13,730 nt of DNA from Acidimicrobiia bacterium (GTDB lineage: Bacteria; Actinomycetota; Acidimicrobiia; Spongiisociales; UBA5794), in assembly GCA_013001485.1 (NCBI GenBank), contig JABDMN010000113.1, positions 1-13,730 on the forward strand, read 5' to 3'. Below, piece by piece: positions 9,015 through 13,730 of this stretch. The notes beneath the pieces were generated by a model. That model saw only the letters and a list, made by a program, of their open reading frames with translations, did not search any database and had not been told where the DNA came from. Positions within the stretch are counted from its first letter, which is position 1. The number at the start of each line of letters is the position of its first letter. A program made the position numbers and the translations under genes.

Positions 9015-9602
9015 ATGGCTTCGAGTTGGCAAAAAGTGATGTTCTTCCTCGGGTTGGTGGATGAAGAGGAATCCGCCACCGCCGAGGAGGTTCCCGCGTT
9101 CGATGAGATCGAACCGTCCGTCGGCGAACCGTTGGCTCCCGGAGAACCAGATGCCCCGGCAGCTCCTCAGGCGGCTCCACCGCCAGAGCCGGCTCAGGTG
9201 AAGACCCACGGCGGTGTCGCGGGACGCCGCGTCGAGCCTCCGTCGCGCCGGCGTCGCAGACTGCTCGGCGACGGCGATGTCGACGCGACTGCCACTGTCA
9301 CCCCGATAGCGGGCGGCGCCACCGAGGTGATCGTCGCCAAGGTGTTCGGTGACGCTCAGCGCCTCGCAGACCTCATCAGGGAGCGGCGAGCCGTCGTTCT
9401 CGACCTTCGGTCAACCGAGCCCGAGATGGTCCGCCGTCTTGTCGACTTCTCGTCCGGGCTCACGTACGCGCTCGACGGCACGATGCGCAAGATCGCTCAG
9501 GGCGTGATCCTCGTTGCCCCGGGATCGTTTGCGCTTCCCGACCAGGAGCGTGACCGCCTCGTCGGTCTTGGGCTGTATGCCTCTGGAGCCTCCGACAGCT
9601 GA
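9015..9602 (+). CDS. sepF: Cell division protein SepF (FtsZ membrane anchor)
   Basis: Cytoplasmic protein that ties FtsZ filaments to the membrane; in actinobacteria, which lack FtsA, it is the main anchor. The 195-residue protein starts with an amphipathic helix (MASSWQKVMFFLGLV, 1-15) typical of the membrane-binding end, followed by an acidic and proline/alanine-rich linker (about 16-75), an arginine run (RRRRR, 78-82), and the SepF fold (about 94-174) with EVIVAKVFGDAQRLADLIRE and then VVLDLRSTE, DFSSGLTYALDG and VILVAPG. Starting at ATG 9015 puts the amphipathic helix first; starting at 8934 would bury it behind 27 extra residues. Four bases separate it from yggS. Its expected partner is the FtsZ tail encoded upstream. 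Confidence 0.94.
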   Translation: MASSWQKVMFFLGLVDEEESATAEEVPAFDEIEPSVGEPLAPGEPDAPAAPQAAPPPEPAQVKTHGGVAGRRVEPPSRRRRRLLGDGDVDATATVTPIAGGATEVIVAKVFGDAQRLADLIRERRAVVLDLRSTEPEMVRRLVDFSSGLTYALDGTMRKIAQGVILVAPGSFALPDQERDRLVGLGLYASGASDS

Positions 9603-9859
9603 TGATCTGCACGATCCTCAACGTCCTCCTTCTCATCCTCTTCGCCTGGGTGATCCTTGGGTGGGTCGTCGAGCTCGGCAGGATTCCGGCCGGTCATCCC
9701 GTGCGCAGTCTGTATGACCTCATCGGTCGGGGAGTCAATCCGGTGTTGCGGCCCATCCGCGCCGTCCTGCCCCCGGTTCGCATCGGCAACGCAGCCCTCG
9801 ATCTCTCTGTGATCGCGGTGTTCGTGGCCCTGTGGATCGTCATGAGCGTGGTCTGCTGA
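9602..9859 (+). CDS. yggT: YggT family membrane protein (YlmG/SepG-like)
   Basis: Small protein of 85 residues with two predicted membrane segments (about 4-25 and 66-84) flanking a loop with the family motif NPVLRPIRAVLPP (46-58) and a following AALDLSV. In Streptomyces and other Gram-positives the gene sits between sepF and divIVA, and the homologue (YlmG/SepG) affects division and nucleoid organisation; the biochemical role is unknown. The ATG shares its first base with the sepF stop (TGATG), so the two are translationally coupled. Most family members have one or two copies of this unit; this one has a single copy. Confidence 0.9.
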   Translation: MICTILNVLLLILFAWVILGWVVELGRIPAGHPVRSLYDLIGRGVNPVLRPIRAVLPPVRIGNAALDLSVIAVFVALWIVMSVVC

Positions 9860-9904: not shown

Positions 9905-11509
9905 ATGGACTTCACGTCGTACCAGGCGGAAGCGGAACGGTTCGCAACCGTCCGCAAGGGGCTCGACGCCGGTGAAGTAGCCAGGTTCCAGGCCAAGGCT
10001 GCTCGCGCGTTGCGCACCTACGAACGCGAGCTTGGTATCGCCACTCAACGGATCCGCGAGCTCGAGGCGAAAGTAGCGACCATCGATGGTCGCGTCGCCC
10101 AGTCCGAGCTTGCCTTTCTTCACGCTGCCGATGCCCGCCAGGACCTGCTCGCCAAGTCACGCAAAGAGGCTGAGCGCATCGGCGCAGAAGCCGAAGAGAT
10201 ACGGGCAGAAGCTGCTCGTTTTCGCGATCGAGTGTCAACGGACCGCCGGCATTCGCTCGAGACCGCCGAAGCTGAGCGCACGGCCCTGCTCGCCGAAGCC
10301 CAGAGTCATCTAGATCAAGCCGTCGCATTGAAGGCCGAAGCCGAAAGAGCCGCCGCCGAGGTCGTGGTCGCCGGCCGTCGCGGACTCGAGGGGGAGCGGA
10401 GTGACCGGCTCGGGGACATCGCTGAGCGAGAGAACACACTCGATGCACGCGAGGCCGAGCTCGTGGAGGAGTTGGCGCACCTGAGGTCGGCAGCAGAGAC
10501 CGATCGACGAGCTTTGCTTGACGGCGCGGAGGCCGAAGCCCGGGATGCCGTGGCCGCAGCTCACAGCGAAGCTGCGGCGATGCTGCAATCGGCGATGGGT
10601 GAGTCGGTTGAGGCCGGCCGCCGAATCGAGGCCGAGAGCTTGGCGATGCAAACCGAACTCGACCGACGGTCGGCGACGACCAACAGCGAGGCCGCCAGGA
10701 TCGTCGGCGAGGCGAACGACCGGGCGGCTGCGATCGTCGGCGACGCCGCGACGGAAGCTGCGTCGATGCGGTCCGAGATCGACGCTGAACTCAACGATCT
10801 GGACGCGGAGATCGGTCGTCGTCGCCAGTTGGCGACCGATGAGGCAGCCGAGATACTGGGAGACGCAAGCGCAATAGCCGAGTCGACCCTGGTTGACGCT
10901 CGGGGCAGAGCCGAGGAAGACGAGCTGGGTGCCCGGCTCGCCAGGGAGCAGGCCGAGTCGGAGACCCGCGAGCTCCTGGAGTCGTCACGGGCGGTTGCCG
11001 CTGCCGTTCTCGAGGATGCTCACGAGAACAGTGACGAGATTCGTGAGGCTGCCGCATTGCAGATCGCCGCAGCAGAAGACGAGGCCAACCGCCGGATGTC
11101 ACAGATCGAGGCGGAGCGTGCCGGTGAGCTTCGTGCACTCGAGCAACGCCTCGCCGCGCTTCGCTCAGTCATATCCGACACCGAATCTCGATTCCGGTCA
11201 GTCACGGCATCGTCGCTCGACGATCTTGCCACGGTGGGGGCCTCTCCTGCCGGTGTCGTTCCGGAAGCGCCCGTGGACGCGGAGCCTCATGTCGTGGTTG
11301 AGCTGGAGGGCCCGGATGTCGTCATCGACCTCACTTCGGAGGTGGGCACGCCACCGGCCGACGCTCTGCTGGACCGTCGCGCGGCGAAGGCCATCGCCGG
11401 TGCAACGGAGGAAGACGAGAACGATCTCGACGCCTTGCGGCAGCGTCCCGGCTTCTATCAACGACGGCTAGCCGGCCTTCGGGAGCGCATCGAGCGTTAC
11501 GAGGACTGA
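9905..11509 (+). CDS. DivIVA-domain coiled-coil protein with 51-residue repeats
   Basis: Probable polar or septal cytoskeletal scaffold, by analogy with DivIVA/Wag31. The gene sits after sepF-yggT, exactly where actinobacteria carry divIVA. Residues about 13-58 fit a divergent DivIVA domain: F13, RKG, then D21, EV (24-25), F28, and LEAKV (53-57) line up with the B. subtilis FTKSFRGYDEDEV...LEAKV segment, but the Tyr after Gly is Leu and the loop that inserts Phe/Arg into the membrane is altered. Residues about 60-430 are an unbroken Ala/Glu/Arg-rich coiled coil, with a 51-residue periodicity clearest from 211 to 414. Residues 446-485 are a Pro/Val-rich acidic linker, and the end (506-534) is a predicted helical module with RPGFYQRRLAGLRERI. 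At 534 residues it is longer than typical DivIVA (about 250-400). No signal peptide or membrane segment is seen. Scy/FilP-type proteins are the main alternative. The stop overlaps ileS tail to tail. Confidence 0.75.
   Translation: MDFTSYQAEAERFATVRKGLDAGEVARFQAKAARALRTYERELGIATQRIRELEAKVATIDGRVAQSELAFLHAADARQDLLAKSRKEAERIGAEAEEIRAEAARFRDRVSTDRRHSLETAEAERTALLAEAQSHLDQAVALKAEAERAAAEVVVAGRRGLEGERSDRLGDIAERENTLDAREAELVEELAHLRSAAETDRRALLDGAEAEARDAVAAAHSEAAAMLQSAMGESVEAGRRIEAESLAMQTELDRRSATTNSEAARIVGEANDRAAAIVGDAATEAASMRSEIDAELNDLDAEIGRRRQLATDEAAEILGDASAIAESTLVDARGRAEEDELGARLAREQAESETRELLESSRAVAAAVLEDAHENSDEIREAAALQIAAAEDEANRRMSQIEAERAGELRALEQRLAALRSVISDTESRFRSVTASSLDDLATVGASPAGVVPEAPVDAEPHVVVELEGPDVVIDLTSEVGTPPADALLDRRAAKAIAGATEEDENDLDALRQRPGFYQRRLAGLRERIERYED
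10535..11146 (+). repeat. Four 51-residue (153-base) degenerate coiled-coil repeats
   Basis: Within the DivIVA-like protein, units at residues 211-261, 262-312, 313-363 and 364-414 line up without gaps. Landmarks recur at exact 51-residue spacing: IVGEA (266), ILGDA (317), VLEDA (368); AAAML (223) and AAAIV (274); I241 and I292; E251 and E302; RR at 254-255 and 305-306; EAA at 262-264 and 313-315. Inside each unit 11-residue steps are visible, for example EAARIVGEAND, RAAAIVGDAAT, EAASMRSEIDA (262-294). The conservation is at protein level; the DNA copies have diverged, so this is an old repeat. Confidence 0.7.
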
Positions 11510-13730
11510 ACCCGGCTCAGACGCAACTCGAGCGTCGCCCCTTCGACGTCTATCGCCGTCGCCGCTTCACCGCTTCCTTCGCTGATGCTCACTGCCAGCA
11601 CCTCGTCTGCGATGAGATCGGCGTGCTTCGACATAGCGGCGGTCACGTTCTCATCGCTGGAGGTCCATTCGATCTCGATTCGATCGGTGACCTCGAGAGC
11701 CTCTTCGCGGCGCATGCGCTGGATGCGGCTGATGATCTCTCGCGCCACTCCTTCGGTCCGGAGCTCCTCGTCCACATCCGTGTCGAGCGCGACCGCTACA
11801 GGCCCGGACGACGCCACGACCACTCCGTCTCGCGGTGTCCGTTCGACCACCACATCGGTGGCAGAGATCTCGTGGTCGAGCACGGTCAACGTGCCACCGT
11901 CGAGCAGGCTGCCGATATCAGTGTCTGTGAGGTCGTTGAGGGCACGAGCCAACTCCTTGACCGCACCACCCAGGCGGGGTCCGAGCTCCTTGTAGTCGGG
12001 CTTCACGGAGAGGTGGAGCAGATCTCCCTCGTCGGGAGAGACGACGACGTCCTTGACGTTCAGCTCGTCGGCGATGAGCTCCCGGTGTGAAGCCACGGCA
12101 GCCGTGACCTGGGCGTCACGAGTGATGACGGTCAACGATCGCAGTGGCTGGCGGACCCGGAGTTGATGCTCCTTGCGAAGCCCGCGGCCCAGGTTCACAA
12201 CGGTGCGGATGGCGTCCATTGCCTGCTCCAGGTCGCGGTCGATCGATGGCTCGTCGACCGTCGGGTAGTCGAGCAGGTGCACGCTGTCGCCGGCGCTGTC
12301 GTCGACCGAGACGGCGAGGCGCTGATACAGGTCTTCAGTTATGAACGGGATGACCGGCGCAGCCACAGTGGAGAAGGTCACCAGGACGTCGTACAGAGTG
12401 GCGAACGCGGCGAGCTTGTCGGCTTCGGTGGCGTCGCTTCGTTGGGACCAGAAGCGGCGCCGGTTGCGACGGATGTACCAGTTGGTGAGATCGTCGATGA
12501 ACCCGAGAATGGGCGGGACGACGGCGTGGAGCCGGTACCCCTCCATCTCGTCGTTGACGGCCCCGATCAGGCTCTGCAACGAGGAGACGATCCACCGATC
12601 CATTTCCGGTCGCTGGTGGAGCGGTGGCGCGGATCGGAGGTCCTCGTAGGAGACGCCGTCGGCGTTGGCGTACGTCGTGAAGAACACGAATGCGTTCCAC
12701 AGCGGCAACAGAACGGTGCGGACGACCTCGCGCACACCGACCTCGGAGAACCGAAGCGGATCGGCTCTCACGACGGGCGAGTTGATCAGATAGGCGCGCA
12801 GTGCGTCGGCGCCGAACTCATCGAGCACATGTACGGGGTTGGGGTAGTTCTTGAGGCTCTTGGACATCTTTCGCCCGTCCTCGGCGAGGATGAGACCGGT
12901 GACGACGCAGTTCTGGAAGGGTGCCTCGTCGAAGAGCGCCGTCGACAGGACGAGCAACGTGTAGAACCACCCCCGTGTCTGGTCGAGTCCTTCGGCGATG
13001 AAGTTGGCCGGGAATCGTTGGGAAAACCGGTCCTGGTTCTCGAACGGATAATGGATCTGGGCGTACGGCATCGAACCCGACTCGAACCAACAGTCGAGAA
13101 CCTCGGGCACCCGGTGGGCCGTCCCGTCACAGGCAGAGCAGGGGAACGTGACCTCGTCGACGAAGTGCTTGTGGAGGTCGTCCAGCCACACACCAGAGCG
13201 CTCCTGGAGCTCCTCACGCGAACCGATGCACACCAGCTCATCGCACGAGTCGCACTCCCAGACCGGTATGCACGACCCCCAGTAACGATTGCGGCTGATC
13301 GCCCAGTCGCGGGCGCCGGCAAGCCAGTTGCCAAACCGCTTCTGACCGACCGACTCGGGAACCCAGTGAATGGTCCTGTTGAGCTCGACCATGCGGTCGC
13401 GAAAGGCCTCGACATTGACGAACCAGGTGGGGATCGCCTTGTAGATCAGTGGGGTTTCGGTGCGCCAGCAGAAGGGATAGGAGTGGCGGATCTGGGTGTG
13501 CGACAGGATCTTGCCCGATTCCTTCAGCAGCCCGATCAGCGTGCTGTCGGCCTCCTTCACGTTCATCCCTGACACGTCCGACACGGCGTCGGTGAAGTTG
13601 CCGACAGCGTCAACGGGGTCGACGAGGACATCGAGGCCTGCCGACTGCAGCGCGACGAAGTCGGCCTCGCCGTAGGCGGGTGCCATGTGGACCAGGCCGG
13701 TGCCTTCTTCCGTGTTGACGTCGCTTGAGG
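11497..13730 (-). CDS. ileS: Isoleucyl-tRNA synthetase (type 2, eukaryote-like), 5' end beyond window
   Basis: Class I synthetase charging tRNA-Ile. The window holds the C-terminal 743 codons and the TAA stop; about 300 N-terminal residues with the HIGH motif are off the edge. The reading continues to the window end: codons before the apparent Met at 13686 spell SSDVNTEEGTGLVH, joining the editing-domain motif GTGLVHMAPAYGEADF with the conserved Asp. Also visible: HSYPFCWR, WAISRNRYWGSCIPVWEC, CxxC pairs (CDSC and CSAC), DCWFESGSMPYAQ, DQTRGWFY, KMSKS (12856-12870), and the anticodon-binding NWYIRRNRRRFW. ISRNRYWG, NWYIRR and the absence of a C-terminal zinc finger point to the type 2 form found in eukaryotes and many actinobacteria, which as a class tolerates mupirocin. 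The gene converges on the DivIVA-like gene with a 13-base overlap. Confidence 0.97.
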   Translation of the reverse strand, partial: SSDVNTEEGTGLVHMAPAYGEADFVALQSAGLDVLVDPVDAVGNFTDAVSDVSGMNVKEADSTLIGLLKESGKILSHTQIRHSYPFCWRTETPLIYKAIPTWFVNVEAFRDRMVELNRTIHWVPESVGQKRFGNWLAGARDWAISRNRYWGSCIPVWECDSCDELVCIGSREELQERSGVWLDDLHKHFVDEVTFPCSACDGTAHRVPEVLDCWFESGSMPYAQIHYPFENQDRFSQRFPANFIAEGLDQTRGWFYTLLVLSTALFDEAPFQNCVVTGLILAEDGRKMSKSLKNYPNPVHVLDEFGADALRAYLINSPVVRADPLRFSEVGVREVVRTVLLPLWNAFVFFTTYANADGVSYEDLRSAPPLHQRPEMDRWIVSSLQSLIGAVNDEMEGYRLHAVVPPILGFIDDLTNWYIRRNRRRFWSQRSDATEADKLAAFATLYDVLVTFSTVAAPVIPFITEDLYQRLAVSVDDSAGDSVHLLDYPTVDEPSIDRDLEQAMDAIRTVVNLGRGLRKEHQLRVRQPLRSLTVITRDAQVTAAVASHRELIADELNVKDVVVSPDEGDLLHLSVKPDYKELGPRLGGAVKELARALNDLTDTDIGSLLDGGTLTVLDHEISATDVVVERTPRDGVVVASSGPVAVALDTDVDEELRTEGVAREIISRIQRMRREEALEVTDRIEIEWTSSDENVTAAMSKHADLIADEVLAVSISEGSGEAATAIDVEGATLELRLSRVQSS

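Follow-up and report, generated by a model that had tools for sequence, protein, structure and literature searches.

The closest described systems to the locus considered here are DivIVA (Wag31) and the proteins Scy and FilP. Scy and FilP carry a DivIVA-like head and hendecads, such heads form dimers by way of the helix after the motif loop, and a published scenario derives FilP from DivIVA via duplication and growth of the rod (PMC9858780). Scy begins right before the RGYD motif, without a preceding N-terminal stretch, and Scy and some FilP clusters lie near crotonyl-CoA reductase, the context of FilP being more diverse (PMC9858780). For the DivIVA of Streptomycetaceae, one study places a membrane-targeting structure in the head and links the second coiled coil to oligomerisation (PMC12585849). 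Here, we analysed a 13,730-nt stretch of an Acidimicrobiia bacterium genome (contig JABDMN010000113.1; hereafter the window), in which a gene following sepF and yggT encodes a 534-residue coiled-coil protein, P0001 (hereafter the window protein). Scy reportedly has a 51-residue repeat, described by Walshaw and colleagues, and a preliminary description of the window had proposed that the window protein joins a DivIVA-like head to a rod with such a repeat, being either a fused scaffold or an ancestral form of the separate proteins. Our analysis suggests that the gene is probably the divIVA of its lineage in the usual place, strongly diverged and with a stretched coiled-coil rod, and that a lineage-specific, Scy-like rod is likelier than a fusion or an ancestor. 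In the part of the literature that was searched, none of the titles and abstracts on DivIVA, Scy, FilP or coiled coils among the matches listed describes this family.

The order sepF-yggT-P0001-ileS, downstream of ftsZ-sepF, is that of the divIVA slot at the dcw/sepF locus, and not that of crotonyl-CoA reductase or the scy-filP pair. Because a protein search with the window protein gave 2 relatives, P0002 (62% identity over the full length, from an Acidimicrobiia bacterium metagenome-assembled genome [MAG]) and P0003 (371 aa), the slot was surveyed by gene order. The region beyond sepF, which is present in 48 of the 50 genomes of the UBA5794-type family (f1) and the locus of which recurs in many Acidimicrobiia MAGs, was fetched in 47 family genomes besides the window and read from yggT to ileS; the four loci at which ileS was not seen had contig ends or different genes. 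A DivIVA-like protein occupies the slot in 20 of the 48 genomes (the window and 19 of the 47 fetched, two being cut by contig ends), the slot is empty in 27, and 1 more (L057) has an unrelated frame, glyoxalase/VOC-like by eye, in the yggT-ileS gap. By genus, 8 have the slot protein and 12 do not; the slots without DivIVA are L044, L047, L050, L052, L054, L057, L059, L060, L062, L063, L065-L075, L078-L080, and L082-L085. Among 20 of 63 loci examined in a further sample, 17 lay outside the family set, of which 8 have a short DivIVA of the ordinary type in the slot and 9 have none; thus, absence is not confined to the UBA5794-type family. The family's slot proteins (L042-L088) share locus, head, and tail helix with the window protein, measure 227 to ~650 aa, and have rods that vary in length and sequence. 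Where 16 of the 20 were aligned together with P0002 and P0003, F13, V25, F28, L36, and L525 are invariant. When 119 class genomes were searched directly with the protein, 5 gave matches, the window's own genome included, and the other loci matched in class genomes encode DivIVA-type proteins, none at the slot as far as examined.

At the profile level, the head is homologous to the N-terminal domain of DivIVA. A profile built from 11 of the 20 slot heads matched the structures of DivIVA (2wuk, E 5e-6; 2wuj, 1.6e-5) and GpsB (1.6e-4 and weaker), and an earlier profile that added three sister DivIVA heads scored better, including Wag31 (6lfa) at 8e-4. Scored against hidden Markov models (HMMs), the window head obtained 44.8 bits with slot heads exclusive of its own genus, 21.8 with sister DivIVA, 18.8 with FilP, and 16.7 with canonical DivIVA; in this comparison, of the kind proposed in the preliminary description, FilP thus came slightly above canonical DivIVA. 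One slot relative, L043, has the motif RGYDPAEVE and clears the PF05103 cutoff (36.2 bits vs 28), and the best NCBIfam match of the window protein is DivIVA_Wag31 (NF050102), weak at 25.8 bits over residues 309-447 vs a cutoff of 260; this cutoff is narrow, being passed in just 4 of 149 phylum genomes. The head phylogeny joined the window protein, L042, and P0003 with support of 100/96, slot L043 and the own-genome paralogue C77 being added less firmly (93/84), whereas the FilP clan (98/93) includes another own-genome paralogue, C119, and excludes the window protein. Arg17-Lys18 of the window protein would be the counterpart of the Phe-Arg loop pair of Bacillus subtilis DivIVA.

The C-terminal part points the same way, with a rod followed by a tail helix as in DivIVA/Wag31. 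The window tail scored 29.1 bits with a slot-tail HMM of 10 proteins and 12.7 bits with a Wag31-tail HMM, and did not match the FilP- or sister-tail HMMs (the P0002 tail scored 3.1 bits with FilP). The best conserved stretch of the aligned slot proteins is the C-terminal peptide GFY[QE][RK]RLAGLRxR[IL], and VDLT, IDLT, or VIDLT recurs ahead of it in many of them by eye. Searches for the peptide at E<=0.01 gave 19 matches in 18 of the 50 family genomes, of which 17 lie in the slot gene; the two others are on another contig of G150, where the slot gene is cut, and in G128:C519. The peptide occurs in 17 of the 20 slot proteins, one more being cut by a contig end, and is absent from L051 and L064. 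With E<=0.001 as the limit, 198 class genomes gave the peptide in 2, each a member of the family, and 149 phylum genomes likewise in 2, namely the window's own and one with a 27-aa frame; in the samples searched, the peptide is almost confined to the UBA5794-type family, which sets the window protein apart from DivIVA/Wag31. The G128 match (G128:C519:45576-45626, L228) is weak (E 0.0055), off the slot, and within a 312-aa frame. By eye, the C-termini of the own-genome paralogues C121 (L089 6546-8180; IYQRRTGGLRRRL) and C77 (L091 4140-4898; RYERQLGGLKQRL) resemble the slot peptide, and neither was reported by the motif search at E 0.01.

In the rod, the preliminary description had placed its repeat at residues 211-414, with the landmarks IVGEA, ILGDA, and VLEDA starting at residues 266, 317, and 368; these positions are right, and so is the 51-residue self-similarity. 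Comparison of this stretch with itself (BLOSUM62, 129 shifts) gave shifts of 40 (z 6.3), 51 (z 5.4), and 11 (z 5.2) residues as the highest, and the z score of shift 51 (z51) was reached at any shift in 0 of 2000 shuffles. The same comparison of P0002 ranked 51 first (z 4.9). With large hydrophobics only, 51 came third and was weaker (z 3.35; matched somewhere by 9% of 400 shuffles), and z51 of the window protein remained ~5 under nulls preserving the heptad, hendecad, or 18-residue register. A Scy/FilP-type, hendecad-based 51-residue periodicity is present in the window protein only in residues 211-414.

Other rods were compared over their proline-free stretches with a composition null and 300 shuffles, control Scy and FilP proteins being assigned by length, adjacency, and N-terminus (antisense frames labelled Scy/FilP in L106, L109, and L110 were ignored). 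The 51-residue shift was significant in all 7 Scy rods (z 5.5-8.7, rank 5-18, after 11, 22, 40, and others) and weak in FilP (z51 2.8-3.6, with 1 of 7 below a family-wise 0.05); among further FilP-like frames from other genomes, some of which are doubtful (those of L114 included), it was significant in 2 of 7 (L115 and L116). The window protein shares with Scy a period of ~3.64 residues and shifts of 11, 40, 51, 91, and 102; unlike it, Scy (1244-1298 aa long in seven controls) begins at the motif, adjoins FilP, and has strong peaks at 22 and 33, which are weak in the window protein. FilP resembles the window protein in its head superfamily, hendecad-rich rod, and expected dimer. DivIVA rods, of which the preliminary description had said that the same repeat in canonical ones would count against it, do not show it significantly: a significant 51 was found in 0 of 10 scored rods from matches to the DivIVA_Wag31 model (lowest p 0.68), 5 of which (L118, L119, L121, L124, and L132) have the plain series 11-22-33-44-55 that is missing from the much longer window rod. 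These 10 remained from 16 rows used out of 30 loci, 6 having too short a proline-free stretch (4 probably wrong frames); among those scored, only L118 and L119 exceed the NF050102 cutoff, and the rows include near-copies (L122, L123, and L127) and weak matches (L130-L132). Of 18 slot homologues taken from other genera, 2 were too short (from two further genera), and the 16 scored, from five genera, gave no significant 51 (lowest p 0.46). Within the window's own genus, 51 was significant in the window protein (p 0.010), P0002 (0.007), and L042 (0.020), the latter two being nearly identical by eye. P0003, with its short rod, gave p 1.0.

A doubtful but possible explanation is that there is no repeat, the 51- and 40-residue peaks being near-integer turns (14 and 11) of a 3.64-residue coil in Ala/Glu-rich sequence. 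The best-fitting periods of 15 stretches were 3.615-3.660 residues per turn (one stretch, DivIVA L124, with little spectral power), with ~3.63-3.64 common to window, Scy, FilP, and DivIVA rods and 3.605 for window residues 71-210. As 40 and 51 residues equal 11 and 14 turns of 3.64, much of any 51-residue signal would come from a nearly straight coil, and this geometry, at ~3.63 residues per turn, fits the shifts of 11, 40, and 51. Under the sternest null, which preserves helical phase for the best-fitting period, z51 over residues 71-440 fell to 2.1-2.5 (P0002, 2.7-3.0), none being family-wise significant; P0002 had z51 of 2.3-3.0 over its counterpart stretch (pointwise p ~0.01, family-wise 0.2-0.8), and Scy itself dropped to 0.1-3.3. 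Even so, z51 of window residues 211-414 stayed at 3.9-4.3 (family-wise p 0.003-0.008). The four successive units of the preliminary description were overstated: units 1 and 2 (p 0.002) and 2 and 4 (0.011) exceed the phase null, whereas units 2 and 3 (0.07) and 3 and 4 (0.15) do not, the same pairs in P0002 giving 0.0007, 0.0013, 0.09, and 0.13. The total over adjacent units, however, had p 0.0003 in the window protein and was reached in 0 of 3000 phase-null shuffles of P0002, two values that are not independent because the proteins are related. The periodicity of residues 211-414 is real, and partly trivial. A recent tandem duplication of the unit was rejected because the DNA holds no 153-nt repeat family.

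Several observations weigh against a diverged divIVA. The Pfam scan of the window protein gave chance-level matches only, missing the PF05103 cutoff, and the single window head, compared with structures, did not match DivIVA. The head motif, RKGLDAGEVA, retains G, D, E, and V of RGYDxxEVD and is otherwise degenerate, lacking Tyr and the last Asp. The head tree has a poorly supported backbone (32/62), on whose FilP side the other 16 of 20 slot-type rows are weakly placed. Most rods of the slot homologues are ~110-160 residues long, so there is little power to see 51 in them, and three Streptomyces-type DivIVA rods (near-copies) have peaks at 11 and 22 plus a weak, non-significant 51 (z 2.2, rank 6). 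In local alignments of rods, each judged by 60 phase-preserving shuffles against three Scy, one FilP, and two DivIVA targets, window residues 71-210 scored z 1.4-5.6 with Scy (5.6 and 3.2 with two of the three), the P0002 rod 2.3-5.6 with Scy, and window residues 211-414 3.6 with FilP L106. Together with the Scy-like set of shifts, with the slight excess of the FilP over the canonical DivIVA head score, and with approximately unbiased (AU) tests on heads, in which the grouping of the window protein with FilP was not rejected (p 0.35), several of these points would also be expected had a FilP/Scy-type protein replaced DivIVA at the locus, the 51-residue rod being inherited from a Scy/FilP ancestor. 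We consider such a replacement improbable. The slot-head score is far above that with FilP, and the FilP clan excludes the window protein and has its own member, C119, in the same genome. The AU tests did not reject one slot clade (p 0.20) either, or the placing of every sepF-locus protein on the same side (p 0.21). Neither do the FilP head and tail profiles fit, the tail matching slot and Wag31 models; moreover, the window protein possesses the N-terminal stretch missing from Scy (PMC9858780), and the scored slot homologues of other genera show no significant 51. As for the rods, residues 211-414 aligned to Scy no better than their own phase-preserving shuffles (z 0.2-1.2), and alignment to Scy was above shuffles for slot L043 (z 2.6-4.0), slot L045 (2.8-3.0), paralogue C121 (5.7-7.0), FilP L112 (4.1-7.3), and DivIVA L119 (3.4-3.8), with 1.5-2.8 for DivIVA L124; these comparisons are mixed, and the similarity to Scy extends across the superfamily as a whole instead of being special to the 51-residue stretch.

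A DivIVA-like head and a Scy-like rod do occur together in a single protein encoded at the divIVA locus, as the preliminary description had it, and this combination, in a class which we take to be other than that of Streptomyces, is what a primitive DivIVA-plus-rod, retained here and the source of DivIVA, FilP, and Scy, would look like. Such an ancestral form is nevertheless very unlikely: among the slot homologues scored, 51 is confined to one genus, it is not significant in the 16 scored slot rods of other genera or the 10 scored DivIVA rods, a separate FilP-type head is encoded in the same genome, the slot holds an ordinary short DivIVA at 8 loci outside the family set, and the published scenario runs from DivIVA to FilP (PMC9858780). 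Nor is a fusion needed to bring head and rod together, because Scy and FilP already carry the same head (PMC9858780). The resemblance to the Scy/FilP rod most likely arose separately.

For a diverged slot DivIVA, we infer a parallel dimer, membrane binding, a direction of evolution, and a function of the peptide as follows. By analogy with DivIVA, the scaffold most likely dimerises in parallel via its N-terminal head. This head would face the membrane at the septum or pole, and the long, nearly straight coiled-coil rod would project from it as a spacer. The tail helix and the cationic amphipathic C-terminal peptide may drive oligomerisation or the recruitment of a partner. The rod would evolve quickly in length and sequence; in the window's genus, it may have grown by steps of ~11 and 7 residues into an underwound coil of ~3.63 residues per turn, which would therefore match itself at 11, 40, and 51, the 51-residue units having some extra similarity on top of the coil phase. 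More tentatively, the divIVA slot of this family could be a testing ground, in which rod length and register vary by genus, 12 of 20 genera lack the slot DivIVA, and a 51-residue rod resembling those of Scy and of intermediate filaments has arisen convergently in one genus, joined to a lineage-specific C-terminal recruiting peptide; DivIVA and a filament scaffold would then be one molecule. If the reading as a diverged DivIVA is right, a Scy-like periodicity of the rod can evolve from DivIVA on more than one occasion, and the rod is therefore no marker of Scy/FilP descent; a comparison of slot proteins across genera would then reveal the rod lengths tolerated by DivIVA. The C-terminal peptide and the presence or absence of the slot gene are more useful leads than the periodicity, the peptide being a defined target for a DivIVA partner in a little-studied actinobacterial class and the absence in many genera bearing on the degree to which the locus copy is required in the presence of paralogues.

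Such paralogues are common. The genome of the window has five other PF05103 places, four of them above the cutoff, and at least one is found in 49 of the 50 family genomes, up to nine in one genome; the slot copy is therefore not the sole DivIVA. Two own-genome heads scored higher with FilP than with DivIVA HMMs, C119 (46.4 vs 29.4 bits), which falls inside the FilP clan of the tree, and C319 (43.9 vs 27.9 bits), which falls outside it. Among paralogue heads of other family genomes, with and without a slot protein, the canonical DivIVA HMM was the best in 12 of 17 (20 frames taken; L236, L237, and L241 dropped as wrong or partial). By eye, C119 (L093 2044-3975) continues after its head with a Pro/Glu-rich stretch and a C-terminal region unlike a coiled coil; C319 lies at L090 10955-11698.

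Table. Parts of the window protein and its neighbours, with positions in the window
Feature	Position (nt)	Strand	Basis
P0001, 534-aa coiled-coil protein, positional DivIVA	9905..11509	+	open frame, gene order, P0002 homology, slot survey
DivIVA-like head, residues 1-60	9905..10084	+	slot-head profile matches to DivIVA/GpsB structures; slot-head HMM
Head motif RKGLDAGEV, counterpart of RGYDxxEVD	9953..9979	+	alignments; motif definition from PMC9858780
First rod stretch, residues 71-210, without 51-residue signal	10115..10534	+	z51 0.64, rank 32
Second rod stretch, residues 211-414, self-similar at 11, 40, and 51 residues	10535..11146	+	self-comparison vs shuffles
Tail helix, residues ~405-445, ALEQRLAALRSVISDTESRF...	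11117..11239	+	aligned across slot proteins; tail HMMs
Linker motif VVIDLT, residues 472-477	11318..11335	+	recurrence in slot alignment, by eye
C-terminal peptide GFYQRRLAGLRERI, residues 516-529	11450..11491	+	alignment; motif search of genomes
sepF, locus-marking neighbour	9015..9602	+	open reading frame (ORF); counterpart in 48/50 family genomes
yggT, immediate upstream neighbour	9602..9859	+	ORF; counterpart in 47/47 fetched family loci
ileS 3' part, convergent neighbour	11497..13728	-	ORF; counterpart in 43/47 fetched family loci

We take the ORFs of the window to be murD, ftsW, murG, murC, murB, ftsQ, ftsZ, pgeF/yfiH, yggS, sepF, yggT, P0001, and ileS. At their convergent 3' ends, the gene of the window protein and ileS share 13 bp (11497-11509).

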